64,000 nucleotides of DNA, taken from positions 248,001 to 312,000 of the forward strand of contig JAIOYF010000001.1 in NCBI GenBank assembly GCA_021741245.1. Direction: 5' to 3'. How positions within the stretch are numbered: position 1 is the stretch's first letter; every line of letters begins with the position of its first letter. This stretch comes from Paracoccaceae bacterium. GTDB lineage: Bacteria > Pseudomonadota > Alphaproteobacteria > Rhodobacterales > Rhodobacteraceae. The notes beneath the pieces were generated by a model that was not told where the DNA came from, ran no database searches, and saw only the letters and a list, made by a program, of their open reading frames with translations. Both the position numbers and the translations under genes were made by a program. Positions 24,963 to 39,752 of the stretch are shown piece by piece.

Positions 24963-25035
24963 ACATAAACCGTTATTATGTAAGCTCCTGATTTCTGGCA
25001 AACATCTGTAAAAGCTTGCAAATATCAGTCAGAAC

Positions 25036-25061
25036 TGTAACACATGACTGTAACACGCGAC
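25036..25061. repeat. Possible integrase arm-type sites, left end
   Basis: TGTAACACA (25036-25044) and TGTAACACGCGAC (25049-25061) are repeated just upstream of the integrase gene. The right end of the element has TGTAACACACGAC at 41897-41909. Matching 12-of-13-bp sequences near both ends, outside the core, fit arm-type binding sites of a tyrosine integrase or sites for an accessory protein. Confidence 0.45.
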
Positions 25062-25080
25062 CCTTACACATGGTGCAGCT

Positions 25081-26910
25081 ATGGCTCTTCCCAGTCACCT
25101 TTTCCGGCGCGGTGCAGCCTATTCCGCGAGGATGAGAGTGCCACTGGATTTAGTCGAAATCATGGGCAAGAAAGAACTGGTGAGGTCGCTTGGAACGTCC
25201 GATCTGGCCGAGGCCAAGAGTCGCCTGTATCCGGTCACAGCAAGCTGGCAACGTGAGTTCGATGATCTTCGCGCCCGTCGCGTCCTAACCAAAGATGATC
25301 AGGCTCATGCGGTGTGGGATCACTACAGAGATGCAACAGAGCGCGATGAGGCGGCGCGTGGGCAGGTGCCATCAGGCGATGAAGTTGCATCTCTTCGGCG
25401 AGATGTAGTTGATGCTGTGCGGCGGGGTGAGGTTGATACGTCAGACCCCGAAGCGGTCATGATCGCTTCGCTTGACTTCATGGTTGCACGGGACGCCCCG
25501 AAGATCGCTGCTGATCATCGTGCGGCAAAGCTTGCGGAACTGCGCCTGCATCTAACCAAGGGTGAAACCGCCCTGATCGCCGATGAGGTTGATGAGTATC
25601 TGCGCACTAACCGCCTCTTGGTTAAACGTGGTTCGCCGGACTGGATCAGTCTCGCCCGATCGATGATGCGGGCAGAGATAGAGGCGCTACAGCGCGGCCA
25701 AGAGCGTGATCGTGGAGACTACACCGGCCATCCGGCAGACCCTATCGTAAAGCCTGCAACCGGACAGCGCCGCGCAACCCCAGAGGCCGCAACGCCCGGT
25801 GAAAGCGTTGCCGATGCTCTTGCGGCCTTCAAGGCTGAGAACCCGAACAATGTTTCGAAGAGCCGCATAGAGGAAGCTTGTCGTGATGTGGGCATCTTCA
25901 TTGATATGAACGGGATCGGCGCAGCCTTTCCCGTCGCCAAGATCAGCAAGACGCATGTCCGGGACTGGAAGGTGCTTCTGATGAAGTATCCGCTGCGCGC
26001 TACAGAGGTTGTTGAATTTCGGGAACTGAACATAAACGCCGCTGTCTCACTGAACGAAAAGCATAACCGTCCTACCTTGTCAGACAGGACGGTGAACCGC
26101 TACCTTTCCAGTCTTTCCGCGTTCCTCTCATGGGCAAACCAGAACGGCTACATCATAAGTAACCCTTGTTCCGGCATGTCATTGCGCAAGGAAAAGCGTT
26201 CAAAGACCCTGACCTTTTCCACCGATCAGATGAACACTCTTTTCAAGTCACCGCTGTTTTCCGGTGCGCAAAGCGCATCTGAATGGCGGCTGATATCACG
26301 TCCCGGCGAAGTGAAGATACGTGACGCGCGCTTTTGGGTTCCTCTAGTGATGCTCTACAGCGGTGCGCGTCCCGGCGAGATTGCTCAGCTTGCCATCAGT
26401 GACGTCCGGCAAGAGCATGGTCACTGGATCATGCATATCACCGATGAAGGGGAAGCGACCGAAGAAGGTAAGTCTGTGAAAACTGAAGGATCAATGCGGA
26501 TTGTGCCGATTCATCCGGAACTGATCAGGCTTGGTTTTCTGAAACACCATGCAGACCGGGTGCAGGCGAAGGATGGATCGCAGCTTTTTCCTGATGCCAC
26601 TCGAAACGAGCGCGGTCAGATGATGGCTGACTTTTCGCGCGAGTTCGGAAAGTATCTCACCCGGATTGGCTTAAAGAACGGCAGGGGCTTATCCCTCTAC
26701 AGTTTTCGCCATGGTGCGATCGACGCCTTTCGTCGCGCTGGGTATCTGGACGACCAATTCAGATTCCTGATCGGACACGGCAAGGGAACCATGACCGGGC
26801 GCTATGGCACCTTGCCACAAGGTATGCTGGATCACCGCGTCGAACTGGTGAACGCCATCGCTTATCCCGGCCTCACGATCGATCATCTTGCATCAAGTGT
26901 TATAATATAA
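25081..26910 (+). CDS. int: Site-specific tyrosine integrase (large, DUF6538 N-terminus)
   Basis: The 609-residue integrase opens with a DUF6538-like arm-binding region (SHLFRRGAAYSARMRVPLDLVEIMGKKELVRSLGTSDLAEAK). A core-binding domain spans about 240-360 (RTVNRYLSSLSAFLSWANQNG). The catalytic domain has LYSGARPGEIAQL (first Arg), SLYSFRHGAIDAFRRAG (box II) and LIGHGKGTMTGRYG with the likely nucleophilic Tyr. It lies next to attL and points into the element. It should recombine the 18-bp core at tRNA-Pro. No excisionase is apparent. Confidence 0.93.
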   Translation: MALPSHLFRRGAAYSARMRVPLDLVEIMGKKELVRSLGTSDLAEAKSRLYPVTASWQREFDDLRARRVLTKDDQAHAVWDHYRDATERDEAARGQVPSGDEVASLRRDVVDAVRRGEVDTSDPEAVMIASLDFMVARDAPKIAADHRAAKLAELRLHLTKGETALIADEVDEYLRTNRLLVKRGSPDWISLARSMMRAEIEALQRGQERDRGDYTGHPADPIVKPATGQRRATPEAATPGESVADALAAFKAENPNNVSKSRIEEACRDVGIFIDMNGIGAAFPVAKISKTHVRDWKVLLMKYPLRATEVVEFRELNINAAVSLNEKHNRPTLSDRTVNRYLSSLSAFLSWANQNGYIISNPCSGMSLRKEKRSKTLTFSTDQMNTLFKSPLFSGAQSASEWRLISRPGEVKIRDARFWVPLVMLYSGARPGEIAQLAISDVRQEHGHWIMHITDEGEATEEGKSVKTEGSMRIVPIHPELIRLGFLKHHADRVQAKDGSQLFPDATRNERGQMMADFSREFGKYLTRIGLKNGRGLSLYSFRHGAIDAFRRAGYLDDQFRFLIGHGKGTMTGRYGTLPQGMLDHRVELVNAIAYPGLTIDHLASSVII

Positions 26911-26984
26911 CAAATCTCTTGCCCTAGCTATCACACTGTGTCATTTTAGCATCAGTAACGAGTATCCCTGTTTCTGGTGCCGTA

Positions 26985-28202
26985 GTGAGTTCTCTGTTTT
27001 CCCGGTTCAAGACTGCTTTGGGCGGCAAGGGTGAGGCGAAAGCCTTTGCCCTTTCCGACCCGGAAGCCTTCGCACTGTTCGGGGGTGCGCCATCTATCAC
27101 AGGGCAGCATGTCGGACCCCTGAGCGCCATGCAGGTTCCCGCCGTTATGTGCGCGGTGTCCCTGATCAGCGAAACCGTTGGAACGCTTCCCGCCAAGCTG
27201 TTCGATCGGCAGACCCGCCAAGCCCTTACTGATCATCCGGCTTATCGCCTGATGCACGGTGAGGCGAACGAATGGACAAGCGCCGAAGCCTTGCGCACCG
27301 CTCTTACCGCCGATGCCCTGTTGCATGACAAGGGCGGCTTCGCGGTGGTTGTGCGCAATGGTGCCGGTGAGCCGCTGGAACTGCACCGCGTTCCGCCGCC
27401 CGCTGTCACGATCTACACAGAACCAGATGGTGAACCGTTCTATACAGTCCAGACCGATCGGGGGCATGTGCGCTATGGGTTCCGCGACGTGCTGCACGTG
27501 CAAGCCTTTGGGGGCCGTGCGCCGATCACCTTGGCAAAGAACGCCATCGCACTTGCCGCCGCGTTTGAGTCCCATATCGGCAAGGTCTTTGCCAACGGTG
27601 CACAACCCGGCGGGATCATCACTTCCCCCAAACGCCTTGATGAGACGGCAAAGCAGAACCTTAAGGCCGCTTGGACCGATACCCATTCCGGACCGAAGGC
27701 GGGTGGTGTCGCGCTGCTGGATGAGGGCATGCTGTATCAGCAAGTCGTGATGACCCTGAGCGATGCACAGTTTGCAGAGAACCGCCTTGAGCAAATCCGC
27801 GAGATTGCTCGCGCTTTCCGTGTCCCACCCACCATGCTGTTCGAACTGTCGCGCGGCACGTGGTCAAACACCGAAGAAATGGCGCGGCAGTTCCTGCAAG
27901 TGACCTTGCAGCCATGGCTTCGGTCTTGGGAATGGTCCTATTCCCGCTGCCTGCTGACCCCCGAAGAGCGCCGCGAAGTTTACGTGGAATTCGTGATCGA
28001 TGATCTGCTTTCCACAAGCCATGCCGCCCGTGCCGCTGCCTATGGGCAGTATCGCAGCATGGGTGCGATGACCGCCAACGAAGTTCGGGCAGGTCTGAAC
28101 CTCACCCCGATGACCGGCGGTGATGTTCTGCAAAACCCCTACACCACGACCGGTGAAGTGCCCGAAACAGCACCGGAACCCAAGGATTCCCCAAATGAAT
28201 GA
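26985..28202 (+). CDS. Phage portal protein, HK97 family
   Basis: The 405-residue protein starts at GTG 26985. It contains the portal signature PAVMCAVSLISETVGTLPAKLF, then DHPAYRLMHGEANEWTSAEALRTAL and FRVPPTMLFELSRGTWSNTEEMARQFLQVTLQPWLRSWEW. It forms the dodecameric DNA channel at the capsid vertex. It is first in the gene block after the integrase, separated from the terminases by about 7 kb, whereas the canonical order places it right after TerL. Its end overlaps the next gene by 8 bp. Confidence 0.93.
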   Translation: MSSLFSRFKTALGGKGEAKAFALSDPEAFALFGGAPSITGQHVGPLSAMQVPAVMCAVSLISETVGTLPAKLFDRQTRQALTDHPAYRLMHGEANEWTSAEALRTALTADALLHDKGGFAVVVRNGAGEPLELHRVPPPAVTIYTEPDGEPFYTVQTDRGHVRYGFRDVLHVQAFGGRAPITLAKNAIALAAAFESHIGKVFANGAQPGGIITSPKRLDETAKQNLKAAWTDTHSGPKAGGVALLDEGMLYQQVVMTLSDAQFAENRLEQIREIARAFRVPPTMLFELSRGTWSNTEEMARQFLQVTLQPWLRSWEWSYSRCLLTPEERREVYVEFVIDDLLSTSHAARAAAYGQYRSMGAMTANEVRAGLNLTPMTGGDVLQNPYTTTGEVPETAPEPKDSPNE

Positions 28203-28581
28203 CCTGATCACGTGCCGCGCCTTTCTTGGCGACGGTGAACATGACTTCTGTCTGACCGATGCCATGATCATCGAACTTGAGCGCCTGACCGGGCAGGGCA
28301 TCGGTGCATTGAACATGGCTCTGATGCAGCTGCAATTCAAAGCCGATCATCTGCCCCAGATCATCCGGCTTGGTCTGATTGGTGCCGGAATGAACCCAGA
28401 GACGGCGCACCGCTTGATTGAAACCTATGCGCGCAACCGTCCCTTGGGTGAGGTCTTCCCGCTGGCCTTGGATATCCTTGATGCGAGGTGGAACGGGAAG
28501 GGTGCTGTAGAGACGCCCGAAGATATCGCGCGCAATGCCGCCGAAGACTATGCCCGCTTCATTGCTGAGGTAGAGGCATGA
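28195..28581 (+). CDS. GTA gp10-like tail assembly chaperone (TAC_11-like)
   Basis: The 128-residue protein FLGDGEHDFCLTDAMIIELERLTG...IIRLGLIGAGMNPETAHRLIETYARNRPL fits the 'gene transfer agent family protein' pattern. Members are thought to chaperone tape-measure assembly. It overlaps portal by 8 bp and the capsid fusion by 4 bp. This position, between portal and capsid, is odd: in related phages it follows the major tail protein, which is not found here. Confidence 0.75.
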   Translation: MNDLITCRAFLGDGEHDFCLTDAMIIELERLTGQGIGALNMALMQLQFKADHLPQIIRLGLIGAGMNPETAHRLIETYARNRPLGEVFPLALDILDARWNGKGAVETPEDIARNAAEDYARFIAEVEA

Positions 28582-30089
28582 CCGATCGGATTGAAATCAA
28601 GGCACAGCTTTCTGTCACCGAACAGGGCGAGATCACCGGCCTTGCTTGGCCGTTCTCTGGACCTGATCGCGTTGGCGATGTGATCGAAAAAGGTGCCTTC
28701 ACCGATGCACCTGCTTCCCTGCCGATGCTGTTTGCCCATGATCAGGGGCAAGTGATTGGCGTCTGGGATGAGATCGCCGAAAGCACTGATGGCTTGACCG
28801 TAAAGGGCAAGCTCTTGGTGGATTACGTAGAGCGCGCCCGCGAGGTCCGCGCCATGATCCGCGCCGGTGCCGTGTCCGGCCTGTCGATCGGCTTTGTAAC
28901 CAAGCAAGCCAAACGCAATGCCAAGGGGCGCACGATCAGCGCCCTTGATCTGCATGAAATCTCTGTTGTCGCGGTCCCGGCACATCCGGGCGCACAGATC
29001 ACCTCAATTAAATCCGTTGTAACGAGTGAGAACCCTATGGAAAACGAGAACCAAACCCCGGCCAATGCGCCGCAAATCGATACCAAAACCTTCGATGCCA
29101 TCCGCGACCGGCTGGATAAGTTGGAAGCCAAACAGAACCGCCCCGGAATGGTGATGACCGGCGCGAAATCCCCGGTGATGGGTGCTGATGAGGTCAAAGC
29201 CTTCACGCACTTCCTGCGCACCGGTGACGCATCCGAAGTCAAATCCCTTGCCTATGGTTCGCCTTCGACTGGTGGCATCCTTGCCCCTGAAACCGTATCG
29301 GCAACCATTCTTGAAAAAGTCGCGGAATTCTCGCCTGTGCGCACCCTTGCCCAAGTGATCGGCATGAATGGTCCGCTGTTGCAACTGCCCCGGCTGGTCA
29401 ACGAAGTGAACCCGGCACCCGTTGCTGAAGGTGCAGCCAAGCCCGAAAGCGAACCGACTTTCGAACAGATCGATCTGAAACCGTTTGAAATCGGTGTTGT
29501 GGTTCCCGTCACGAAAATCTTGTTGGAAGATGCACAGATCGACCTGTCGTCCTATCTGGCAAACCACGTTGCGCGCCGGTTCGGGCAGCGTGAAGCTGCA
29601 TGGTTCGTGAATGGCAACGGCACCACGCAAGCCGAAGGCATCCTGACGTCTGCCGAAGTTGCTGAGACCGAAGTCGCGGTCATCACCGGTGATGTGCTGA
29701 TCGATCACTTCTATTCTGTGAAGACTGCTTACAGCGTCAACGGCGCATGGCTGATGAACCGCTCCACCATGGCGATTGTGCGCAAGCTGAAGGACACTGA
29801 CGGTGCCTATCTGTGGCAGGGTGGGATTGCTGCTGGTCAACCGGCAACCCTGCTTGGCCGTCCGGTCTATGAGGCGGTTGACATGCCGAACCCGACCGCA
29901 GGTAATTCCCCGATCATCTTCGGTGACTTCGCTTCGGGCTATGCCGTTGCCGATCGTGTCGGCTTTGAAATCCTGCGCGATGACTACACCGGCGCTGCAA
30001 CCGGCATCGTCAAACTGATTGCACGCCGCCGTGTTGGTGGTCGTGTGATCATGGGTGAAGCGCTGTCGAAGCTGTCGCTGGCAGCCTGA
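28578..30089 (+). CDS. Fused prohead protease - major capsid protein (HK97 type)
   Basis: The 503-residue polyprotein has residues ~1-150 as the S78 prohead protease: GLAWPFSGPDRVGDVIEKGAF, LFAHDQGQVIG with the catalytic His and VSGLSIGF with the catalytic Ser. A short helical linker (ENQTPANAPQIDTKTFDAIRDRLDKLEAKQ) resembles the scaffold delta-domain. From about residue 215 the HK97 capsid fold follows (GSPSTGGILAPETVSATILEKV, VPVTKILLEDAQIDLSSYL, DFASGYAVADRVGFEILRDDYT). The fusion would self-cleave during maturation. It is the only capsid gene in the element. Confidence 0.93.
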   Translation: MTDRIEIKAQLSVTEQGEITGLAWPFSGPDRVGDVIEKGAFTDAPASLPMLFAHDQGQVIGVWDEIAESTDGLTVKGKLLVDYVERAREVRAMIRAGAVSGLSIGFVTKQAKRNAKGRTISALDLHEISVVAVPAHPGAQITSIKSVVTSENPMENENQTPANAPQIDTKTFDAIRDRLDKLEAKQNRPGMVMTGAKSPVMGADEVKAFTHFLRTGDASEVKSLAYGSPSTGGILAPETVSATILEKVAEFSPVRTLAQVIGMNGPLLQLPRLVNEVNPAPVAEGAAKPESEPTFEQIDLKPFEIGVVVPVTKILLEDAQIDLSSYLANHVARRFGQREAAWFVNGNGTTQAEGILTSAEVAETEVAVITGDVLIDHFYSVKTAYSVNGAWLMNRSTMAIVRKLKDTDGAYLWQGGIAAGQPATLLGRPVYEAVDMPNPTAGNSPIIFGDFASGYAVADRVGFEILRDDYTGAATGIVKLIARRRVGGRVIMGEALSKLSLAA

Positions 30090-30093
30090 TGCC

Positions 30094-30387
30094 ATGCAAA
30101 CCACGCTGAACATCCTGCCGAAAACATTCATCGCCGCCACCAGTGTGGCGGTAACGGCCCTTCGTTTGCAAAACATATCGCCGCACTATCATGTGTTCCT
30201 GCAAATGACCCTGACCAATAATCAACCCGAGAATCTTGAGGGTGCGTTACTGTTTAGTGCAGGTGCCACGCTCACTAGTGATTTGTCCCTGCATAACCTT
30301 TTCCCGGCGATCGTCGGGGAAGGCGGTGCCGGTTTCCTCTGGCTTTGGGCAGACGAAGGCGGGATCGTCAGCGTTTCGCATGCCTAA
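30094..30387 (+). CDS. Small phage protein, unknown (possible head decoration)
   Basis: This 97-residue protein (MQTTLNILPKTFIAATSVAV...) starts 4 bp after the capsid gene. It is hydrophobic and beta-prone, with HVFLQMTLTNNQPENLEGALLFSAGATL and GEGGAGFLWLWADEGG. Its position after the capsid suggests a decoration or stabilising protein, but I have no family match. The end overlaps the next gene by 8 bp. Confidence 0.55.
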   Translation: MQTTLNILPKTFIAATSVAVTALRLQNISPHYHVFLQMTLTNNQPENLEGALLFSAGATLTSDLSLHNLFPAIVGEGGAGFLWLWADEGGIVSVSHA

Positions 30388-30997
30388 TGCCATGCTTGCC
30401 CCCAAGGATATCAGGCTTGTGCACGGTTTTTATACCGTGCGCTTGCGCCCGTCCTTGCGGGCAGCAATGCAGCTTGAGCGCCTGCATGATGGCTTTGCCC
30501 CGCTGTTCGATCGGCTATCCGCGTTCAATCTCGCCACGGTGCAACAGATCATCCTTGCCACGGCAACGGACCCAGACCAAGCCGAACGCTTCCTTGCAAG
30601 CTTCGCCACAACGCCCTTGCAACGCCTTGCCGAGATCACCCAAGCACCATTGGCAGACCTGATCACCGGCTTCCTGCCAAGGTCACCCAAGGGCGACACA
30701 GCACAAGGCAGGGCGGTGCCATGGTCAGACGCCTATGCCCAACTTTATCGCTTCGGCACCGGCTGGTTGCAATGGACCCCGGAACAGACCTGGGCTGCAA
30801 CACCCGCCGAAATCCTTGAAGCCGTTGAGGGCCATATCGGCAAGCTGAAGGCCATGAATGGCAGGACCGAAGATAACGGTGATTTAGTCCAGGGTGATGA
30901 AATCTACACCGCCGATCGGCTGCACCAAATCGCCGAACAGGGCTTCGATCCTGAGTTCGATCGGGCAGGGCTGCATGCCCTGAAAGGCAAGCTCTGA
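30380..30997 (+). CDS. Phage tail-chaperone-like protein (GTA-related)
   Basis: The 205-residue protein starts at ATG 30380. The N-terminal half VRLRPSLRAAMQLERLHDGFAPL resembles TAC_11-type chaperones. The C-terminal segment LQWTPEQTWAATPAEILEAVEGHI resembles the conserved W-x-P...W-x-x-TP-x-E block of GTA/phage tail assembly chaperones. Such proteins normally sit just upstream of the tape measure gene; here the tape measure is 6 kb away. It overlaps its upstream neighbour by 8 bp and the HNH gene by 1 bp. Confidence 0.65.
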   Translation: MPNAMLAPKDIRLVHGFYTVRLRPSLRAAMQLERLHDGFAPLFDRLSAFNLATVQQIILATATDPDQAERFLASFATTPLQRLAEITQAPLADLITGFLPRSPKGDTAQGRAVPWSDAYAQLYRFGTGWLQWTPEQTWAATPAEILEAVEGHIGKLKAMNGRTEDNGDLVQGDEIYTADRLHQIAEQGFDPEFDRAGLHALKGKL

Positions 30998-31338
30998 TGC
31001 CCCGCCCGCCGCATTTATGCCAGTGCGGCAAGCTTGTGCCGCGTGGTGCCCTGTGCGCTTGCCAGATCGCAAGCCATCGCGCCCGCAATGCACGGCATGA
31101 CGCCAAGCGCCCAACGGCACGGCGACGCGGTTACACCGCCGAATGGGAAACAGAGCGCAAAGCCTTCCTGATCCGTCATCCGCACTGCACCCTGTGCAAT
31201 GCACCCGCAACGGTGGTTGATCACATCATTCCGCACAGGGGTAACAAGGTGCTGTTCTGGGATCGTGCTAACTGGCAACCGCTGTGCAAGCCTTGCCACG
31301 ATCGGCACAAGCAACGGCAAGAGCGCCATGTTCGATGA
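30997..31338 (+). CDS. HNH endonuclease
   Basis: The 113-residue protein has two zinc-type Cys pairs at the N-terminus (CQCGKLVPRGALCAC). The classical HNH core is CTLCNAPATVVDHIIPHRGN...NWQPLCKPCHDRHKQRQE. Phage HNH proteins of this kind sit beside terminases and help genome cleavage during packaging. Here it is separated from TerS/TerL by about 3.5 kb and a reversed cassette. It starts on the A of the upstream TGA. Confidence 0.9.
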   Translation: MPRPPHLCQCGKLVPRGALCACQIASHRARNARHDAKRPTARRRGYTAEWETERKAFLIRHPHCTLCNAPATVVDHIIPHRGNKVLFWDRANWQPLCKPCHDRHKQRQERHVR

Positions 31339-32071
31339 TCATTCGCATGGCCGAAGCCCTGAGCAAGACCTATGGCAGAGCGTATTGCTCGCTATTGTCG
31401 AAGATGCCCTTTTCGGTAGCTTGCGCCGCGTGACCCCGCGCCAAGGGGCAGAAGAACGGAACGCTATAGCACGCACTACCGACTGCCAAACCGCCCGCGA
31501 CTACCTTACCCGGCCAAGCCGCGACCTTGCGACGGTCTGCGCCCTTGGTGGTCTGGATATGTGGGCCGTGATCGAACACATGACGCGCCAGATCGCCGCC
31601 GCACCCTCACCGGAAGAACTGGCCCGTTCCACCAACCGCCGAGCCACCAAGCCGAAGCAACCAAAGCCAGTGAAGCCAGCCAAGACCGGCCCGAAGCAAA
31701 TCCCCTTCGAAGGGGAGTGCTTGACCATCGCAGAATGGGCTGAGCGCACAGGCTTGCCGCAAACCACAATCAAGACCCGGCTTGCAGCGGGATGGCCGAT
31801 CGATCGCATCTTGACCGAACCCAGAGGCTTGAAGGTGAAGCGCCCGCGCAAGGATCAGCTCAGACCCGCAAAGGCTGGCACACCCGCAAGAACCCTCACC
31901 CATGCAGGCGAGACCCTTACCATCCGGCAATGGTCAGAGCGCATAGGGCTGTCAAAGGGTGCAATTGAGAGGCGCCTGCGCTTTGGCTGGCATATCGATC
32001 AGGTTCTGTCATCGCAGAACATGCGCGGGAAGAGCTTTGCAGGGCAAAACTTAAGCGGCAATCAACCTTGA
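31328..32071 (+). CDS. Protein with two tandem helix-turn-helix repeats, unknown function
   Basis: This 247-residue protein has a duplicated ~40-residue module: IPFEGECLTIAEWAERTGLP (continuing QTTIKTRLAAGWPIDRIL) and THAGETLTIRQWSERIGLSK (continuing GAIERRLRFGWHIDQVL). Each looks like a helix-turn-helix of the kind found in homing nucleases and phage DNA-binding proteins. A basic Lys/Pro-rich linker (KPKQPKPVKPAKTGPK) precedes the first. The N-terminal ~90 residues are helical. It overlaps HNH by 11 bp, so the two may cooperate. Its 3' end overlaps the convergent DUF4325 gene by 21 bp. Confidence 0.65.
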   Translation: MFDDHSHGRSPEQDLWQSVLLAIVEDALFGSLRRVTPRQGAEERNAIARTTDCQTARDYLTRPSRDLATVCALGGLDMWAVIEHMTRQIAAAPSPEELARSTNRRATKPKQPKPVKPAKTGPKQIPFEGECLTIAEWAERTGLPQTTIKTRLAAGWPIDRILTEPRGLKVKRPRKDQLRPAKAGTPARTLTHAGETLTIRQWSERIGLSKGAIERRLRFGWHIDQVLSSQNMRGKSFAGQNLSGNQP

Positions 32072-32344
32072 GCTTTCGCTGTCCAGCCTGTCGCGGATCG
32101 TTCTGACAATCTGCTTGTTCGCGCCCCTGATCTGAATTCGCGACTTGATGGCCGCGTAACCGATACGGGACAAAAGTGGGACGAAAGCAGAATTTACGAA
32201 TGAGGAGGTGACACAGTTTATGCCCGTGAAATCAACTGTCACTTGCGTCTCAGCACGCAGCGCGGATGTGATCGCTTCGATCACTAATTCACCCTGCACG
32301 TTCGTGTCGCATCCGGAGATTAGGTTTCCTACCATCAGTCCCAT
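32051..32344 (-). CDS. STAS-like DUF4325 protein
   Basis: The 97-residue protein has the core TQVTVDFTGINCVTSSFVNSAFVPLLSRIG, matching the DUF4325 STAS-like pattern. It keeps serines where STAS anti-anti-sigma factors are phosphorylated (TSS). It is the second gene of a reversed cassette, and its start lies 10 bp inside the 3' end of the GHKL ATPase gene, implying coupled synthesis. By analogy with SpoIIAA/SpoIIAB it may be the switching partner of that ATPase. The actual role is unknown. Confidence 0.75.
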   Translation of the reverse strand: MGLMVGNLISGCDTNVQGELVIEAITSALRAETQVTVDFTGINCVTSSFVNSAFVPLLSRIGYAAIKSRIQIRGANKQIVRTIRDRLDSESSRLIAA

Positions 32345-33225
32345 ATTGCTTCGCTCCCGTTTCCATCATCATCATCTTCGATCGCCGCCGTAGGGATACG
32401 GATATTGATCAACGTTCCATTATAGCCATGGTTCCCTAAGACGAAGTTACCTGAACGCAGTCCTTTTTCCAAATCACAAAGAGCAATCCCGCCGCCGGAC
32501 ACAACGTTGATGGTGCCGTGCAGGTTTGTCACCACGTTCTGACGAAGTAGATACAAGCCAGCGCCTCGGTTCGTCGGCTTGCTCTTGGTCGAAAAGCCGT
32601 CTTCGAAAGCTTGAATGATACACTCTGCCGGAGAAAGCTCCGGTAGAACTTCCCTGACGTTTGCAGGTATGCCACGACCAAAGTCGGAGATTGCGATATC
32701 GACAAATTCTTGCTTCGGATACCACTGAGCAAAGATACTTCCAATCTCAAGTCCTGCATGATCTTGAATGTTATTGAAAATTTCCTTGATGCACATTTCG
32801 ACTTCGGCAAGTTCGGTCAGGGATCGGTTGCTGCATTGTGACAGCCAAGGTAAAAATGTGCGGCTTGCCCAGAAGTGACAGTCTTGGTGCTTAACTTCCT
32901 TGAGCGTGCTGCTTGTCTTGCGGGGTGTTGAACCAGCGAACTGATACTCACCGAACTTGTCTTGGAAGAACCCTATTGAGTCCAGATAACGCATGGCTCT
33001 GCTGTCTGGTCGCTTAAAGTGACTGTAATAAACCTTACACCCAGCACCGTGCAGGTGCTTTGTAACATTGTGAACGAAGACAACGCCCGTTGCCCTGACT
33101 GCCGTCACTTGAGAAAAATCAAAGTTGATTCGCTCAGGTTTTGGTTCTGCTGACAGACACTCAAATTCTGATAATTTCCTTAATATATCAATAACTTGAA
33201 GCTTATGAGGTAAAACTATGTCCAT
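32335..33225 (-). CDS. STAS-like domain fused to GHKL (HATPase_c) ATPase
   Basis: The 296-residue protein has residues 1-100 as a STAS-like fold (INFDFSQVTAVRATGVVFVHN). Residues 130-285 are a GHKL ATP-binding domain: N box EVEMCIKEIFNNIQDHAG, G1 SDFGRGIPANV, G2 NRGAGLYLLRQNV, and a closing NGTLINIRIPT. The ATP-binding motifs are intact; no dimerisation/phosphoacceptor His box is seen, so it is not a classical sensor kinase. The tail is acidic (EDDDDGNGSEA). It lies antisense in the late region and looks AT-richer than its neighbours, so it is probably acquired cargo. Confidence 0.8.
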   Translation of the reverse strand: MDIVLPHKLQVIDILRKLSEFECLSAEPKPERINFDFSQVTAVRATGVVFVHNVTKHLHGAGCKVYYSHFKRPDSRAMRYLDSIGFFQDKFGEYQFAGSTPRKTSSTLKEVKHQDCHFWASRTFLPWLSQCSNRSLTELAEVEMCIKEIFNNIQDHAGLEIGSIFAQWYPKQEFVDIAISDFGRGIPANVREVLPELSPAECIIQAFEDGFSTKSKPTNRGAGLYLLRQNVVTNLHGTINVVSGGGIALCDLEKGLRSGNFVLGNHGYNGTLINIRIPTAAIEDDDDGNGSEAIWD

Positions 33226-33431
33226 TGTCGCTCTTTTCTGCGGCGCTTACCATTTATCGGCATGACCTTAGATAACGAAATGCAAAGGAACAACAGGACA
33301 CGCCCACAACTTCAGACTGACCTTTATTGCGGGGAGGGTGGTTCACGTCTTGGAACGCGCCGTAGGGACCGGCGGGGGGAGGGTCACGCAAGAGACCCGC
33401 AATATAACTTTTCCTCATGACTCGGATGTGA
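33226..33431. other. Divergent spacer upstream of the reversed cassette
   Basis: No gene is seen here. The stretch must hold the leftward promoter for the GHKL cassette, though I cannot pick one with confidence. A G-rich patch (GGCGGGGGGAGGG) lies at 33371-33383. Confidence 0.4.
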
Positions 33432-33437
33432 TATAAT
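33432..33437 (+). promoter_or_regulatory. Consensus -10 box for the second phage gene block
   Basis: TATAAT lies 31 bp before ATG 33468 of the connector gene. The -35 region around 33409-33414 (TTTTCC) is poor, so an activator may be required. It would restart transcription of connector-to-tape-measure genes beyond the reversed cassette. Confidence 0.45.
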
Positions 33438-33467
33438 TGCAACATTGATGTGTTGCGAGTATCGAGT

Positions 33468-33740
33468 ATGTCTGTTTCCAGTATCCTAGATCACCTGAAT
33501 CTTCCCGATCAGGACGGCTTTCTACTGCAAGACCTTGCCGCTGCGGCTTGGGCTTACACTGAGAACGTCATCGGTGCACCCATTCCAGAGCCAACGCCGC
33601 TGCCATTGGTGCAGGCCGTTTCGATGCTGATCGGGCATTGGTATGAGTGCCGCGAGGCCACCATGATCGAAGGTGCAGCCCGTCAGGTGCCATATGGCTT
33701 CGATGAGCTTGTGCAATCTTACCGCCGGTGGGTGGTTTGA
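33468..33740 (+). CDS. Head-tail connector protein, gp6-like
   Basis: The 90-residue helical protein has SILDHLNLPDQDGFLLQDLAAAAWAYTENVIGAPIP...AVSMLIGHWYECREA...VPYGFDELVQSYRRW. This is the standard phage gp6-like (phage_connect_1) pattern forming the ring beneath the portal. ATG 33468 is chosen over GTG 33450 by fit to the family N-terminus. It adjoins the gp10 gene directly. Confidence 0.85.
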   Translation: MSVSSILDHLNLPDQDGFLLQDLAAAAWAYTENVIGAPIPEPTPLPLVQAVSMLIGHWYECREATMIEGAARQVPYGFDELVQSYRRWVV

Positions 33741-34157
33741 ATGTCAGACCTGATGCGACAATCTGCCAAACTGTCGGCACGCCTGAACGCCATCCCGCAA
33801 GAGGTGGTAAAGCACTTGCGCCCTGCCTTGATCGCTTCAGCCGAAAACACCGCCGGTGTAATGCGTTCCCTTGTCCCGGTGGATGAGGGTGACCTGAAGG
33901 CGTCGATTGAAGTCACACCGCCGGGTGCCACCACGCCTGCTTATGCCGCTGGTGGTGGCCGTCGAATGGCAGGGGAGAACCAAGCCCTTGTGACTGCCGG
34001 AAACCCTGATGTTCGGCATGGACACTTGCAAGAGTTCGGCACTGTCGATCATCCTGCACAACCATTCCTGCGCCCTGCTGAGCGCCTGACCCGTGATCAG
34101 AACCGCCGCCGCATTGGCCGTGCTGTGGGTCAGGCTATAAGAAAGGCGGGTGTGTGA
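33741..34157 (+). CDS. HK97 gp10-like tail-completion protein
   Basis: The 138-residue protein has LRPALIASAENTAGVMRSLVPVDEGDLKASIEVTPPG and EFGTVDHPAQPFLRPAERLTRD, the HK97-gp10 signature. It acts at the neck, where head joins tail. It shares TGATG with the next gene. Confidence 0.87.
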   Translation: MSDLMRQSAKLSARLNAIPQEVVKHLRPALIASAENTAGVMRSLVPVDEGDLKASIEVTPPGATTPAYAAGGGRRMAGENQALVTAGNPDVRHGHLQEFGTVDHPAQPFLRPAERLTRDQNRRRIGRAVGQAIRKAGV

Positions 34158-34576
34158 TGTTCGAACCATCGCTTGCCCTTCAAACCGCTATCCGTGCCGC
34201 GCTGATCGCTGCGCCTGCTGTGACTGCCCTTGTCCCTGCCGATCGCATCCGCGCGGGTGCTTCGCGCCCTGACTTGTTCCCCACCATCATTCTTGCACCC
34301 GGCCAAACGCTCTTCCTTGGCCGTGCCAGTGGCGGACAACTGTGTGCACGGGTGGTTCTGGACCTGCATATCTGGGCGCTTGAAGACGGCGCTGATACGG
34401 CCCGCGCGATCGGGGGGGCCGCGCAGCAATCCCTGATCGATGCGCCCGAAGCCGAAGGCTTTGGCATCGATGAATGGGGCAAGCCGCAAACTCAATGGAT
34501 GCGAGACCCCAAGCCCGAGCTGATTGCGTGTCACGGCGTCATCCAACTTTCAGGCGTTCTGCGGTGGAGGGTGTGA
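34157..34576 (+). CDS. DUF3168 tail terminator/completion protein
   Basis: The 139-residue protein has the DUF3168 pattern: LQTAIRAALIAAPAVTALVPADRIRAGA, FPTIILAPGQTLFLG, CARVVLDLHIWA and CHGVIQLSGVLRWRV. This family ends the tail tube and joins it to the neck. ATG 34157 overlaps the upstream stop by 1 nt. In canonical gene order the major tail protein would follow; here it does not. Confidence 0.85.
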   Translation: MFEPSLALQTAIRAALIAAPAVTALVPADRIRAGASRPDLFPTIILAPGQTLFLGRASGGQLCARVVLDLHIWALEDGADTARAIGGAAQQSLIDAPEAEGFGIDEWGKPQTQWMRDPKPELIACHGVIQLSGVLRWRV

Positions 34577-34578
34577 CC

Positions 34579-34890
34579 ATGCGTGCCGGATTGCTACGCC
34601 ATGAAATTGAGCTTGAGCGCGAAGTCGAAACCGTCGCTGACTCTGGTGCGGTGGTAAAGGCATGGCAGCACTACGCCGATCGCCGTGCAGAGCTTCGCCA
34701 AAGCACCGCCGATGAGTTCCTGAATGGCACTGTTGAGGGTGCCAGTCAGAAAGCGGTGTTTGTTATCCGTTGGACCGAGGGTGTCAAAGTCGGTGATCGG
34801 CTTTTGCATGCTGGTAAGGCATGGCAGATCGTTGGGCTTGTGGAGATCGGCGTTCAACGCGGGCTTGAGCTTATGGTGATAGGCTCATGA
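34579..34890 (+). CDS. Head-tail adaptor (Phage_H_T_join)
   Basis: The 103-residue protein MRAGLLRHEIELEREVETVADSGAVVKAWQHYADRRAELRQ...VFVIRWTEGVKVGDRLLHAGKAWQIVGLVEIG is typical of the SPP1 gp16-like adaptor family. ATG 34579 starts 2 bp after the DUF3168 stop. The end overlaps terS by 4 bp. Confidence 0.88.
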   Translation: MRAGLLRHEIELEREVETVADSGAVVKAWQHYADRRAELRQSTADEFLNGTVEGASQKAVFVIRWTEGVKVGDRLLHAGKAWQIVGLVEIGVQRGLELMVIGS

Positions 34891-35279
34891 GCAAGCACCT
34901 TCGCGGTGTGAAGCCGCCGATCAGACTTGATCAGGAACCCCTGACCAAAGCACCCAAGGCACCGGCCTATTTTTCTTCCTATGCTGTCGGGGAGTGGAAG
35001 CGGGTTCTGCCGGTTCTAGTGCAGCGTCGGGTAATCTGTGTCGCTGATCTGGCACAAGTCGAGACTTACTGCTGCATGGCAGGGCTGGTGCGCCAGATCG
35101 AAACAGAGCGTTGTGCCGCCGGTGGTGTGATCGATGTTCGAATGTTTGGGGTGCAAAATCGTGCTGCACAAACAGCGCGCCAGCTTGCGGCGTCCCTTGG
35201 CCTTGATCCGGTGTCCCGTGCGCGGCTTGGCAGCGCTGCACCTGATGCTGATGACGATGACAACCCGCTTGCGGTGTAA
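34887..35279 (+). CDS. terS: Terminase small subunit, P27 family
   Basis: The 130-residue protein PAYFSSYAVGEWKRVLPVLVQRRVICVADLAQVETYCCMAGLVRQIE fits phage P27-type small terminases. A C-terminal block LAASLGLDPVSRARLG and an acidic tail follow. It recognises pac or cos DNA and recruits TerL, located 2 bp downstream. Confidence 0.88.
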   Translation: MSKHLRGVKPPIRLDQEPLTKAPKAPAYFSSYAVGEWKRVLPVLVQRRVICVADLAQVETYCCMAGLVRQIETERCAAGGVIDVRMFGVQNRAAQTARQLAASLGLDPVSRARLGSAAPDADDDDNPLAV

Positions 35280-35281
35280 TC

Positions 35282-36886
35282 ATGGCAGGCACGTTCCCGG
35301 CTTGGATTTATGACGGTTCGCCGATCGATGACCCGTTAGGCCATGGTGACCGCGCGGTGCAGTTCTTGCGCCGCTTGAAACACCCTGCAAGCACAGCGCC
35401 GGGAAACCTGTTTCAACTGACCTCATGGCAAGAGCGCATTGTCAGGCGCATCTATGGACCCCGGCACCCGGATGGCCGCCGGATCGTCAAGGAAGTCTTC
35501 CTTATGATTCCGCGTGGCAACAGAAAGACCAGTTTGGCGGCTGCACTTGCCTTGCTGCACCTGTTCGGCCCTGAGCGCATGCCTGCTGGTCAGATCATTT
35601 TTGCCGCGTCCGATCGTGAACAAGCCGGAATTGGATTCAGGGAAGCTGCTGAGATCGTGCGCCAAGACCGCCGACTTGAACGTGTCACCCGGATTTATGA
35701 TGCGCACAATTCTGCAAAGATGATCCGAAGCACGATTGACGGTTCAACCCTCAAGGCGGTTCCGGCGGATGGCAAAGGCCAGCACGGGACAACACCAACA
35801 TTTATCTTGGCCGATGAAATCCACGTTTGGCGGGGTAGAGAGCTATGGGAAGCGCTACGAACCGGCATGGCAAAACGTCCCGGCGGTTTGGTGGTTATCG
35901 CTACAACCGCCGGAAGGGGTAGGGAAGGGCTTGCCGCTGAACGCTATGACTATGCCCGCAAGCTTGCCTTGGGCGACATTGTGAATGAGGAATACTTGCC
36001 GATCTTGTTTGAGCCGCAAGAGGGTGATGACTGGCAAGACGAAGCAATGTGGCATCGGGCGAACCCTGGCCTGAGCCATGGCTTCCCCGACATTGACGGC
36101 TTGCGCACCCTTGCCCGTGAGGCGGTTGATAGTCCTTCTGAAATGTATGCCTTCCGGCAATTTCATCTTAACGAATGGATGGGGAACAGCCATGACCCTC
36201 TGTTCAATTTTGAGACCTATGACGCCCGCCGGTTCGATGACGATGAGGCAGACCTAGCAGAATTGCCGTGCTGGATCGGTGTAGACCTTTCCCGATCGGG
36301 TGACCTGACTGCCGTTGTCGTGGCGTTTTTGTGGCCGGATGGTCAAATCACTTTGCGCCCGAAGCTCTTTGTGCCGGGTGAGGATTTGAAGGCGCGTTCT
36401 GATCGGGATGGTGTGCCGTATCAGGCTTGGGCAGATCAGGGGCTTATCAAGCTTTGCCCCGGCCCGATTATCGATGAAGAAGCCGTTGAGGCGGAAATCA
36501 GGGAAATCTGTGCCGCCTATGACGTGCAAGAGATCGCTTTTGATCCGCATCTTGCCGCCCGCCTGATGCAGCGCCTGTATGATGACGGCTTGCAGGTGGT
36601 GGAGTTTCGGCAGACCCCGCTGAACATGGGTGCCGCCGGTGCTGATCTTGAGCGTGTCGTGAATGGCAGACTTGTTCGGCATGACGGCAACCCGATCTTG
36701 AGGCATCACCTTTCTTCGGTGGTCGCGGTGCGCACCGATAGCGGCCTGACCCGGATGGTGAAGGGCCGAAAGAATGATCGCATAGACGGTGCTATTGCCG
36801 CTGCGATGGCTGTTAGCCGTGCCTGTGCCGGTCAATCGAACCTGAGTGCCTACAACGACCCCGCCTCTTCTCTGTTCTGTTTCTGA
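35282..36886 (+). CDS. terL: Terminase large subunit
   Basis: The 534-residue packaging motor has an ATPase domain with Walker A-like FLMIPRGNRKTSLAAAL (near residue 77) and Walker B TFILADEIHVWRG. The nuclease domain has WIGVDLSRSGDLTAVVVAF (first Asp), AYDVQEIAFDP and KNDRIDGAIAAAMA (last Asp). Both activities look intact. Placement between terS and the tape measure gene is unusual, since portal normally follows. Confidence 0.94.
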   Translation: MAGTFPAWIYDGSPIDDPLGHGDRAVQFLRRLKHPASTAPGNLFQLTSWQERIVRRIYGPRHPDGRRIVKEVFLMIPRGNRKTSLAAALALLHLFGPERMPAGQIIFAASDREQAGIGFREAAEIVRQDRRLERVTRIYDAHNSAKMIRSTIDGSTLKAVPADGKGQHGTTPTFILADEIHVWRGRELWEALRTGMAKRPGGLVVIATTAGRGREGLAAERYDYARKLALGDIVNEEYLPILFEPQEGDDWQDEAMWHRANPGLSHGFPDIDGLRTLAREAVDSPSEMYAFRQFHLNEWMGNSHDPLFNFETYDARRFDDDEADLAELPCWIGVDLSRSGDLTAVVVAFLWPDGQITLRPKLFVPGEDLKARSDRDGVPYQAWADQGLIKLCPGPIIDEEAVEAEIREICAAYDVQEIAFDPHLAARLMQRLYDDGLQVVEFRQTPLNMGAAGADLERVVNGRLVRHDGNPILRHHLSSVVAVRTDSGLTRMVKGRKNDRIDGAIAAAMAVSRACAGQSNLSAYNDPASSLFCF

Positions 36887-36902
36887 TTTGTGAGTGAAAA
36901 CG

Positions 36903-39200
36903 ATGAATGATGTTTCCCTTCCCGGCCTGATTGTTCCGATCGAAGCCCGTATCGATAAGTTAGAAAAGGGCTTGAAGCGCGCCGCGCAGGTGCAGGCCCG
37001 ATCGGCTGCGACAATGGAACAGCGCGCCAAACAATCAGCAACCCGCATGGCGCAGAGCTATGAACAGGCCGGTTCTGGAATTGCGACTGCTATGGCGCGA
37101 TTTGCTGCACCCCTTGCTGGTGTCTTGGTGGCTGACACGCTGATCAATATCGGGCGGGCCGCGCGCCAGACCGTCGGTGCCATGGCACGTGTCGGTGATG
37201 AGGCGAAACGGGCAGGTGTCGGGGTGCAGGCGTTCCAAGAATGGAGTTTCGTCGCTGATCAGAACCGGATCAGTGTTGATGCCCTGATTGACGGTATGAA
37301 GGAACTGAACCTTCGTGCCGATGAGTTCATCGTCACCGGTGCAGGCAGTGGTGCCGAAGCCTTTGTGCGCCTTGGGTTCTCTGCAACTGATCTTGAAGCC
37401 AAGTTGAAAGACCCATCCGAACTTTTGCTTGAAATCATGGGGCGGCTAGAGGAACTGGACCGGGCCGCGCAAATCCGTGTTGCCGATGAAATCTTCGGGG
37501 GCACTGGCGGTGAGCGCTTCGTTGAGCTTATCAGCCAAGGTGAAGCAGGGCTTCGCCAGACGATTGCACGTGCCCATGAAGTTGGCGCGGTGATGGATTC
37601 GGCAATTATCGAAAAGGCGAGTGAACTTGATCGAAAGTTCAACGAGCTTGGCTCCCGCCTGCAAGCCTTGTGGCGCGGGCAGATCGTGGAAGTTGGCGAG
37701 TTCTTCGGGCTGATAGAACGCGAGCGCGCGAAGTTGGAGTTCGTGCCGCAACAGGTTGGCCGTGTTGTCGGTAACGATTTGGCACGGCAACTTGAGGCAC
37801 AAGGCGCTGCTGGTCAGGAAGCACTTGGCGTCGTGCGATCGATGGAAGCCGAATATAGGAATCTTGGCCGCGAAGCACAGGCCCTTGCCATGCAGCTTGC
37901 AGACGCCAGCAATATGCTTCGCGGGTTGGGGCAGGTGGCACAGGCCGATGCCTTGCAAAGCTTGGCGCAACGCATGGCCAAAGCTGCCGGTGAGTTTGAC
38001 GCTGGTGTAATCAGCGGTGAACAGTTCGCCGAAACCTTGGGCGATGTGACAACTGAAGCCGATACTACGATCAGCGCAATGGATGATCTGGACAAGGCTA
38101 GCCTGTCAGGTGTCATCGGACAGGTGCAGGGGTTGTTGTCATGGATTCAGGCACTGCCCGCCGCCGTTGCGGCTGCACGTTCTGAGATCAGCACGCTTGA
38201 GGCACCGGGCATGACGTCCGGCACACCCTTGAGTGGCTCAGCCGATGGCCTTATGCCGCCGACTGCACCAACCGTAACCACGTCACCGCGACCACGCCCT
38301 GCACCTGCCATGCTTGGCGAGCCTGTTCGCGCCTCTAGTGGCGGTGGTGGTGGTGGTGGTGGTCGCGATGAGTGGGGCAGTGCTGTTGAATCCATCCAAG
38401 CTGAGACGCAAGCCCTTCAAGCCGAAGCCGCTGCGCTGATCGCAGTTGCCACATCTGGTGAACGCTATTCAGGTGCAATCGAGTTCGCGCGCCAGAAAGC
38501 TGAGCTGCTTGTCGCTGCCCAACGCGCCGGGGTGCAAATCACGCCAGAATTGACCGCGAAGATTGATGCTTTGGCGCGCGCGAATGTAACGGCGGGCGCA
38601 TCTGCGGAAGCCGCTGCAAAAAAATTGCAGTCAATCGAAGACTTCGGCAAACAAAGCGCAGATACAATGGCGGATCTGTTCACCGGCATTGTGACCGGAT
38701 CAATGACGGCAGAAGACGCTTTGAAACAACTGATTGCACAACTGATCAAAATGGCTGCGCAAAAGTTCTTCCTGAAATTGTTCGGCGGATCAATCGGATT
38801 CGCATCCGGTGGATATACTGGTGACGGGGGCACCTTCCAACCCGCTGGCATTGTGCATAAAGGCGAGTTCGTCTTGAGCAAGAAAGCAACTTCGAGGCTT
38901 GGCGTTGACAATTTGAACGCTTTGCACGCAAGCGCATTGCGCGGATACTCAGGCGGTGGTGCCGTTGGTGATGTTCCGAGAATGCATTTTAGCGCGAGTG
39001 AATCAGGTAAAGCGCAAAGTATCGCGCAGACTGTAACAGTCAGTGCGCCGGTGACAGTTTCCGGAAGCGCAGGAACGCCAGATCAAAATGACGATCTTGC
39101 GCGCAAAATTGCGTCGCAGATGGAAAATCAAATGAAACTGGTCTTTGGCAATGAACTGCGCAAGCAAATGCGACCCGGTGCGATGCTGAACCGGGGATAA
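36903..39200 (+). CDS. Tail tape measure protein
   Basis: The protein has about 765 residues. Long helical stretches (IEARIDKLEKGLKRAAQVQA, ELDRKFNELGSRLQALW) lead to a Gly-rich spacer (SGGGGGGGGR near 480). The lambda-gpH-like C-terminus is MADLFTGIVTGSMTAEDALKQLIAQLIKMAAQKFFLKLFGG, FASGGYTGDGGTFQPAGIVHKGEFVLSKKAT. It sets tail length and is injected with DNA. ATG 36903 has a better upstream site than GTG 36894. It is the last structural gene; no tail-tip genes follow. Confidence 0.9.
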   Translation: MNDVSLPGLIVPIEARIDKLEKGLKRAAQVQARSAATMEQRAKQSATRMAQSYEQAGSGIATAMARFAAPLAGVLVADTLINIGRAARQTVGAMARVGDEAKRAGVGVQAFQEWSFVADQNRISVDALIDGMKELNLRADEFIVTGAGSGAEAFVRLGFSATDLEAKLKDPSELLLEIMGRLEELDRAAQIRVADEIFGGTGGERFVELISQGEAGLRQTIARAHEVGAVMDSAIIEKASELDRKFNELGSRLQALWRGQIVEVGEFFGLIERERAKLEFVPQQVGRVVGNDLARQLEAQGAAGQEALGVVRSMEAEYRNLGREAQALAMQLADASNMLRGLGQVAQADALQSLAQRMAKAAGEFDAGVISGEQFAETLGDVTTEADTTISAMDDLDKASLSGVIGQVQGLLSWIQALPAAVAAARSEISTLEAPGMTSGTPLSGSADGLMPPTAPTVTTSPRPRPAPAMLGEPVRASSGGGGGGGGRDEWGSAVESIQAETQALQAEAAALIAVATSGERYSGAIEFARQKAELLVAAQRAGVQITPELTAKIDALARANVTAGASAEAAAKKLQSIEDFGKQSADTMADLFTGIVTGSMTAEDALKQLIAQLIKMAAQKFFLKLFGGSIGFASGGYTGDGGTFQPAGIVHKGEFVLSKKATSRLGVDNLNALHASALRGYSGGGAVGDVPRMHFSASESGKAQSIAQTVTVSAPVTVSGSAGTPDQNDDLARKIASQMENQMKLVFGNELRKQMRPGAMLNRG

Positions 39201-39435
39201 AAGCCTTGGAATGCGAACGGGCTTAAAATAGGGCCATAGGATCGCCTCTGAGGGTTTGCGCATTGGTGTTAATATCCGGACCCGTTAGAAGCGCTGTAAG
39301 TGGCCTGCCAGATCGGCGTGTATGTGCAACACATGCAAAAGGTGCGGCAAAGGTGCATCTCACCTCTGGGCATGCGAGGGGCGCGCAAGCGCCCTGAGCG
39401 CCCGGTGGTGTGTTTGGTCAGGCGCGGGCCGGTGC
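39201..39435. other. Spacer after the tape measure gene
   Basis: There is no supportable gene. It contains GC-rich short inverted segments around 39375-39400 (GGCGCGCAAGCGCC), perhaps part of a terminator for the late transcript, but no T-run follows. Confidence 0.4.
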
Positions 39436-39605
39436 TTCTGAGCCGGAAGGGTTCAGCGGAGTTTCTGTGCTTTTGCGCGTAATCTTTCTTCTTCTTACTT
39501 TCTTACTTCTTCTTTACTTTCTTACTCAATCTTTCTTAATACGTGCAAAAGCACAGAAATTTGTGGGCAAAAGCACAGAGCTTTTCATACCCTTCCGGCT
39601 CAGAA
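39436..39605. repeat. Long imperfect inverted repeat around a pyrimidine tract
   Basis: The outer arms are perfect over 17 bp: TTCTGAGCCGGAAGGGT (39436-39452) against its complement at 39589-39605. The inner arms are perfect over 12 bp: CTGTGCTTTTGC (39465-39476) against 39567-39578. Between them lies an almost pure pyrimidine stretch of TTTCTTACT-like units (39483-39538). This could be an origin, a packaging or regulatory locus, or a structured RNA. Confidence 0.75.
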
Positions 39606-39709: not shown

Positions 39710-39752
39710 AACGCCACTAACCAGAAGTTTGCAAAAATGCAACACATGGTGC

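Follow-up and report, generated by a model that had tools for sequence, protein, structure and literature searches.

A STAS-GHKL kinase-type and DUF4325 gene pair in the cargo slot of a satellite-like element of a Paracoccaceae bacterium

Results

A gene pair runs against the structural genes of an integrated element

We analyzed a 64,000-nucleotide stretch of a Paracoccaceae bacterium genome (assembly GCA_021741245.1, contig JAIOYF010000001.1, positions 248,001 to 312,000; hereafter the window), in which two genes, here termed K and S, are carried by an integrated satellite-like element and oppose its structural genes (Table 1). The original prediction, made from the sequence alone, described two overlapping genes at this site (32051–33225) that run against the structural genes, and the open reading frames (ORFs) and their translations, both intact and on the minus strand, agree with it. 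The overlap recurs in most two-gene relatives and may couple the translation of the two genes. The pair was also expected to separate the HNH gene from the connector genes; it does lie between them, but a conserved gene with helix-turn-helix (HTH)-like repeats intervenes between HNH and the pair. S converges on this HTH gene, and their 3' ends overlap by 21 bp.

The predicted composition of the pair, a STAS-like domain fused to an intact GHKL ATPase followed by a small DUF4325 protein, was borne out by Pfam, phrog_3364, AlphaFold2 models and invariant motifs. K matched HATPase_c (2.1e-8) and HATPase_c_2 (2.5e-6), both passing the curated cut-offs, with an N-terminal STAS match below the Pfam cut-off (STAS_2, E 0.06). 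We assign this N-terminal half as STAS-like because phrog_3364 matches K over its whole length (6.4e-41) and the AlphaFold2 model (mean predicted local distance difference test, pLDDT, 89.8) supports it; by our own reading of the modeled secondary structure, it extends to about residue 112 and is followed by the GHKL part to about residue 281. Residues E148, N152 and H156 of the N-box, D181, G183 and G185 of the G1 box and G221 and G223 of the G2 box are invariant in a 41-row alignment. Among solved structures, the best Foldseek matches of K were four SpoIIAB chains, including the complex with sigma-F, which favors the kinase/STAS partner-type switch that had been suggested for the pair. S matched DUF4325 (5.7e-11, above the cut-off) and phrog_9989, and its AlphaFold2 model (pLDDT 95) places S47 at the start of a helix. 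Foldseek returned nothing for S at E<=0.001; a second structural comparison retrieved STAS domains including RsbS, RsfB and SpoIIAA at modest Z scores of 5.0 to 6.2, with SLC26 STAS domains in the top rows (Z up to 7.4) and unrelated aminopeptidases reaching 5.1. The published STAS proteins VapS and CapS (see below) are missing from these match lists, which carries little weight because of release dates.

The cassette is AT-richer than its surroundings, as had been noted: its GC content is 0.484 versus 0.565 in the rest of the element, and windows of the same size with GC as low numbered 0/266 in the element outside the slot and 0/1210 across the whole window. The effect comes from K, with a third-position GC content (GC3) of 0.492, and not from S (GC3 0.633), which is comparable to the portal, major capsid protein (MCP) and large terminase (TerL) genes of the element (0.60–0.66). 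In the window copy the two reading frames are intact, and so are the GHKL motifs, S47, the gene overlap and a near-terminal Trp of K. The composition of K, the position, the opposite strand and the patchy presence described below all speak for moron-like foreign cargo, as the original prediction had it. Scans for regulatory signals were uninformative in the window: the motif GTTC-N7-GTTC, which we take to be the alphaproteobacterial SOS box consensus, had 45 matches with at most one mismatch against 46 expected, and sigma-70 promoter and terminator scans showed no excess over shuffles. No linked sigma factor was found among the neighbors searched, only a sub-threshold Sigma70_r4_2 match (5e-4) in the HTH gene.

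Table 1. Features of the K/S locus and of the element that carries it, in window coordinates
Feature	Position	Strand	Remark
K, STAS-like + GHKL Ser/Thr-kinase-type protein, 296 aa	32335..33225	-	ORF, ATG start
K residue N152 (N-box)	32770-32772	-	
K residue Ala42	33100-33102	-	column aromatic in most relatives
S, STAS-like DUF4325 protein, 97 aa	32051..32344	-	ORF, ATG start; PF14213
S47, candidate phospho-acceptor of S	32204-32206	-	
K/S overlap, 10 nt	32335..32344	-	ATG of S within last K codons
Cargo slot, 1378 bp, HTH gene to connector	32072..33449	.	variable in sister elements
Satellite-like element, 17,029 bp	24945..41973	+	bounded by 18-nt direct repeat
attL-like 18-nt repeat	24945..24962	+	
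Integrase	25081-26910		in element
Portal	26985-28202		in element
Protease-MCP	28578-30089		in element
HNH endonuclease gene	30997..31338	+	PF01844 2.3e-6
Conserved gene with HTH-like repeats	31199..32071	+	slot left flank; start uncertain: 31199 or ~31337
Head-tail connector	33450..33740	+	slot right flank; phrog_40 7e-16, TIGR01560 1.3e-11
Connectors	33450-34890		in element
Small terminase (TerS)	34887-35279		in element
Large terminase (TerL)	35282-36886		in element
Tape-measure-like gene	36894-39200		in element
attR-like 18-nt repeat	41956..41973	+	in 3' part of tRNA-Pro
tRNA-Pro	41957-42033	-	

K and S form a separate clade of the CapK/VapK superfamily

A published protein family supplies a mechanism for relatives of the pair. 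According to Chambers et al. 2026 (PMC13373217), CapK is activated by single-stranded DNA (ssDNA) and phosphorylates a STAS serine of CapS, whereupon immune operons are derepressed, and the VapK-VapS-VapC operon protects E. coli from phage Bas42 by approximately 2 logs. This protection is lost with VapS S48A or VapK F54A, alanine at CapK W68 or VapK F54 leads to loss of function, and a response to DNA damage is described for relatives; that VapK, too, is activated by ssDNA is a prediction of that source (PMC13373217). K and S belong to this CapK/VapK superfamily, in a separate clade. The original prediction had the right object and class but the wrong frame, a prophage instead of a satellite-like element.

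K profiles detected relatives at 71 viral-contig loci and 27 genome loci, counting all layouts and many near-copies. Together, the loci numbered L001–L120 and the window comprise 99 K-S pairs, a number in which the window enters three times; 80 of the pairs are distinct. Scanning from S instead, K was upstream in 49 of the 50 loci with sufficient upstream DNA. In a tree of 73 K proteins, five gene layouts, labeled before the tree was built, coincide with groups (4 label changes, the minimum). The two-gene layout of the window forms a group of 49 rows (support 91/67) with a core of 48 (97/99); the others are PIN-linked (8), Bacteroidota with a K-S gap (10), fused K-S (4) and membrane-protein-linked (2). 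Short or broken K frames were excluded from trees and alignments, and the two-gene set has 46, 47 or 49 rows depending on length and identity filters, the 49 of the tree and the 49 searched with the PIN profile being different sets. That profile was found in 8/8 PIN-type loci, among them L116, first labeled by likeness, versus 0/49 two-gene, 0/14 gapped and 0/3 membrane-type loci. No recurrent co-directional downstream ORF was seen in the 49 two-gene loci (44 with at least 500 bp downstream), save a CsbD-like gene that follows the pair in two streptococcal prophages closely resembling each other. An adjacent effector is thus lacking throughout the clade, and its lack in the window pair is therefore not decay.

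Inspecting the neighborhoods of such pairs had been proposed as a check on a defense or exclusion role, and the outcome is largely favorable. K relatives occur on viral contigs, streptococcal prophages among them. Of 38 two-gene loci picked from these, 30 have contigs of 25 kb or longer, and in 25 of the 30 the cassette is within 6 kb of a contig end. Element genes within the fetched flanks of other two-gene loci were seen only at L025 (portal- and MCP-like, in a different order) and L097 (HNH). In genomes the two-gene type is sporadic, present in 3 of 385 sampled from the class (G000, G340 and G425, own genome included). DUF4325 itself was detected in 5 genomes out of 101 near relatives, again counting the own genome. 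Searched alone against viral contigs, neither K nor S of the window had matches; VapS gave no result against viral contigs and one match each against plasmids and phages, with no Escherichia vapK.

Several loci of other layouts were recorded along the way. In Streptococcus phage Javan172 (MK448860), an unannotated PIN (VapC-like) ORF overlaps the end of S (L003:5143-5673, plus strand), making a vapKSC-type K-S-PIN operon beside the integrase of a streptococcal prophage. At L006, L007, L009 and L011 (membrane-linked layout), K and S are followed by a protein of 155–185 aa that by eye begins with a hydrophobic N-terminal stretch; for Francisella phage KIRK, PMC7924643 lists a 293-aa, a DUF4325 and a transmembrane gene consecutively. 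In alphaproteobacterial genomes (L014, L015, L016, L018), K carries a C-terminal S-like part in a single 406–425-aa protein (by eye). Bacteroidota pairs (L101–L110, L112, L113, L115, L087) are separated by 7–80 nt, measured by the first start codon, and no third gene common to them was seen. Paenibacillus ferrarius harbors a second S-like gene soon after its K-S pair (L095, ~11383), and two pairs on alphaproteobacterial chromosomes (L012, L013; two-gene, short loci) have flanks that appear non-phage by eye.

The cargo slot is a hotspot of exchangeable defense genes

We compared the slot holding K and S across a sister set of 88 loci defined by MCP: the window, the seven nearest (L122–L128) of 30 family-genome loci and 80 loci among the IMG/VR matches listed (L151–L230). 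Both slot flanks are readable in 67 of the 88 loci, window included, and unreadable in 21, one of which, L128, is read on the minus strand. Of the 67 gaps, 25 are shorter than 100 bp and 37 reach 300 bp or more; 29, including that of the window, reach 800 bp or more. Insertions of at least 500 bp occur at 16/45 HTH-CON junctions, and at 21/22 HNH-CON junctions where no HTH gene was found, compared with 0/66 for CON-GP10, 6/62 for HC-TERS, 7/54 for HNH-HTH and 10/61 for INT-POR. In the large slots, window included, 34 ORFs of 90 aa or longer are encoded on the minus strand, compared with 16 on the plus strand. K and S were detected at none of the other 87 loci, 66 of which have a readable slot and many of which are partial; they are therefore exchangeable cargo and not a core part of the element.

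PADLOC models were run on 40 of the 48 slot ORFs (>=90 aa) outside the window, covering at least one ORF in each of the 28 other large slots. Matches at E<=1e-9 were obtained for 14/40 ORFs in 9/28 slots, with 19/28 slots lacking any. They include a type II restriction enzyme and methylase (L152), type IV restriction-like matches (L161, L205, L211, L215, L217), RT_UG13b with an RT-associated SLATT gene (L215), a beta/PD-Lambda-2-like match with a capP-like peptidase (L212), PDC-S15 (L172), PDC-M36A (L217) and a short nucleotidyltransferase match (L160). Accessory ORFs elsewhere in sister loci gave 0/57 matches at this threshold; these controls, at least 146 aa long, were picked mechanically, as were the slot ORFs, and three of an original 60 were dropped as possibly lying within an unread slot (L195, L124 4027-4518, L128 238-723). 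The difference has a Fisher p of ~8e-7, or 5e-6 counting untested slot ORFs as misses, to be read with the kinship of sister loci in mind. Pfam adds NYN (L174), nSTAND1 (L193) and DUF6236 (L181, L208) to the slot cargo. The slot is thus a hotspot with exchangeable defense genes across sister elements, in line with the defense context suggested earlier.

P2 prophages and P4-like satellites likewise have (PMC9122126) a fixed slot with exchangeable defense cargo; the window element belongs to another family and uses another slot, from HNH/HTH to connector. Neither this slot as a defense hotspot nor the effector-less two-gene clade was found in the literature, in a search that covered a minority of subscription papers and no preprints, and both are new as far as it reaches. 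Among individual slots, L215:6103-9102 holds RT_UG13b, RT-associated SLATT and type IV restriction-like genes together. Recurrent cargo without a name occurs at L159/L163 (351 aa), L165/L175/L204/L214 (~160–184 aa, alike by eye) and L181/L208 (DUF6236), and these families are candidate new defense genes.

The element has the build of a capsid-forming satellite

The original prediction placed the pair in the late region of a prophage. We favor a satellite-like element instead, because of its size, its tRNA-Pro repeat and the gene order shared by 88 loci, which resemble capsid-forming satellites. Among genes recognized, this order is INT-POR-G3-MCP-TAC-HNH-(HTH)-CON-GP10-TT-HC-TERS-TERL-TMP in at least 88 loci. 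Many of the 88 are partial contigs, on which MCP was recognized in 88, HNH in 85, CON in 68, INT in 61, TERL in 57, HTH in 56 and TMP in 49. Among the listed loci having integrase, MCP, TerL and TMP, 34/36 are on contigs of 12.7–22.1 kb. We thus observe a widespread family of capsid-encoding integrated elements in which the order of genes is constant and a tape-measure-like gene is conserved.

Judged by gene content and order, the window element resembles a capsid-forming satellite. As in capsid-forming phage-inducible chromosomal islands (cf-PICIs), whose content we take partly from general knowledge, it is small and integrated and has its own portal, protease-MCP, connectors, HNH, TerS and TerL; it differs by the conserved tape-measure-like gene and a 'tail tube' PHROG match. 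We use only the label cf-PICI-like because the tape-measure-like gene is kept and because tailed prophages may be present among the sister loci (by eye, L126). A tail terminator gene is also present, and none of the 17 element ORFs searched against PHROGs had a lysis or replication match. No helper prophage with a similar terminase was seen; the genome holds one match to this large terminase. Just past the tape-measure-like gene, at 39409-39718, lie dense direct and inverted repeats around GCAAAAGCACAGAA.

Discussion

The locus presents two proteins with intact kinase motifs, near-constant pairing, an effector-less separate clade, an unusual composition of K and a defense-enriched slot. Kinase activity, the Ser47 acceptor, the trigger, the target and an anti-phage outcome are what we infer for the pair.

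Among the closest published systems is vapKSC, whose kinase is likewise an HTH-free STAS-GHKL protein with the gene of a small STAS protein behind it; K, too, begins with a STAS-like half. VapS S48 (PDB 9z7o) aligns with S47 of S, a column holding S or T in 20/20 aligned rows, with S48, F49 and N51 of S invariant. Two-gene and PIN layouts also share a location on phage-derived contigs. On the other hand, the VapS C-terminal region 94-116, the VapC inhibitor, is missing in S, and PIN-linked S ORFs measure 112–129 aa versus 97 aa. A VapC/PIN gene is absent beside the pair, as in all two-gene loci searched with the PIN profile, and the window falls in a separate clade. Decay from vapKSC is ruled out, since the clade as a whole is without VapC. 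A VapC acting in trans was considered and rejected; the one PF01850 match of the genome adjoins a Phd-like ORF (by eye).

CapK-CapS pairs, which regulate CBASS, Bub and Thoeris operons, are likewise adjacent STAS-GHKL kinases and STAS substrates in a defense context (PMC13373217). K lacks the CapK HTH, S is STAS only and lacks the CapS winged HTH (wHTH), and no immune operon lies downstream of the pair. Without these two domains and the VapS tail, the pair is by defining features neither CapKS nor vapKSC. The classical switches SpoIIAB/SpoIIAA, RsbW/RsbV and UsfX/RsfB share the GHKL fold of K, the STAS-type fold of S and a Ser at the start of a helix, and the intact N, G1 and G2 boxes of K recur in SpoIIAB/RsbW-type proteins. 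K departs from them in its extra N-terminal STAS-like half, its mobile-element location and the lack of a linked sigma factor among the neighbors searched.

It is very likely that the window pair works by the same kinase-to-STAS step as CapKS and vapKSC, and we have high confidence in this step taken alone. For the pair as a whole we favor a horizontally acquired, effector-less kinase-substrate release switch with an unlinked partner and an anti-phage outcome, and give this reading a probability of roughly 55%. A trigger during infection or DNA damage would activate K as a GHKL kinase within the CapK/VapK superfamily; K would then phosphorylate S on Ser47, and phosphorylated S would release its bound partner. 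In the relatives this partner is the VapC toxin for VapS and the operator for CapS (PMC13373217). The clade of the window has neither toxin nor operator, and S, or K freed from S, should therefore target an unlinked host or phage protein. The outcome would probably be growth arrest or the blocking of a competing phage. It is a guess that transcription of the late genes might silence the oppositely oriented cassette during particle production by the element.

The same components could serve a different end, which appears doubtful: K would be an anti-sigma or sequestering factor titrated by unphosphorylated S, and S phosphorylation would free K for a sigma factor or regulator, as in SpoIIAB/SpoIIAA and RsbW/RsbV. 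The SpoIIAB matches of K, sigma-F complex included, the SpoIIAA and RsfB matches of S and the missing effector gene at all two-gene loci are consistent with such a role. It fits poorly with the published CapK/VapK relatives, which are not anti-sigma factors, with the neighbors searched, where nothing beyond the sub-threshold region-4 similarity in the HTH gene points to sigma, and with SpoIIAB itself, which is without the extra STAS-like half of K.

It is rather unlikely that the cargo is decayed or idle, having once been a switch and then lost its trigger residue and possibly its partner. Ala42 speaks for this reading and, whichever reading is right, weighs against a simple transfer of the published mechanism to the window copy. 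The STAS-strand column in question is aromatic in 42/46 two-gene, 7/7 PIN-type and 9/9 Bacteroidota K proteins (58/62 together) and in 0/2 membrane-type ones; K of the window has Ala in it, the two nearest relatives (L027 and L094) have Phe, and the VapK-type relative L232 has Arg. Judged by its place and the F/W exchange (L093 has F54 by number), the column may correspond to the ssDNA-contact position of VapK F54 and CapK W68, where alanine abolishes function (PMC13373217). Ala42 thus means that the window copy may sense something else or be impaired. Against decay stand the intact frames, GHKL motifs, S47, overlap and near-terminal Trp, and the clade-wide lack of an adjacent effector, which is hence not a loss of this copy; the column assignment is itself conjectural.

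Control of the element by the pair, through DNA-damage sensing and the timing of excision or late-gene expression, was among the roles first suggested and is unlikely. It would suit the DNA-damage response of the relatives (PMC13373217) and the place of the reversed pair next to late genes, where it could make or receive antisense transcription. Yet K and S were not found at the other 87 sister loci (slot readable in 66, many truncated) although the remaining order is kept, the slot elsewhere has unrelated cargo or is empty, and two-gene relatives reside in streptococcal prophages and other viral contigs. A counter-defense or fitness moron that targets host immunity and not phage is highly improbable: morons near prophage ends have many purposes in general, and 25/30 long-contig cassettes are near contig ends, but the slot mates include defense genes, anti-defense models not having been searched.

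The published branches steer a toxin and immune operons. Should the release switch be the right reading, a clade with nearly always the same tight pair and neither of these would act alone or via a shared host target. More tentatively, the pair may represent a third CapK/VapK branch, a stand-alone two-gene anti-phage switch on an unlinked target, found in prophages of Bacillota and Pseudomonadota and in this satellite-like element, and carried in a defense hotspot of a widespread element family. Identifying the target of K/S would reveal a new way of phage arrest, and the HNH/HTH-connector slot offers a fixed site for seeking new defense genes.

The C-terminal tail of K

An acidic-aromatic K tail, as a mimic of the tip of single-stranded DNA-binding protein or as an autoinhibitory ssDNA mimic, was set aside and kept only as a lead. 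An aromatic residue occurs within the last four positions of 46/47 non-identical two-gene K proteins, with a mean of 5.9 acidic residues in the last 14; a comparable test elsewhere in these proteins was passed by 264 of 12,726 sequence windows (2%). Residues 290-296 of K are disordered in the AlphaFold2 model, and a term search of PMC13373217 found no such tail. Much of the tail may derive from translational coupling, because at the DNA level it is mostly taken up by a Shine-Dalgarno-like GAGGAG and a spacer leading to the ATG start codon of S (GA-ATG-G). In other layouts it is seen in 4/8 PIN-type and 0/3 membrane-type K proteins. A similarly acidic tail is present in 14/16 K-S gapped rows (a set including two broken K frames, L002 and L086), 13 of the 14 ending in F, which favors a feature at the protein level.

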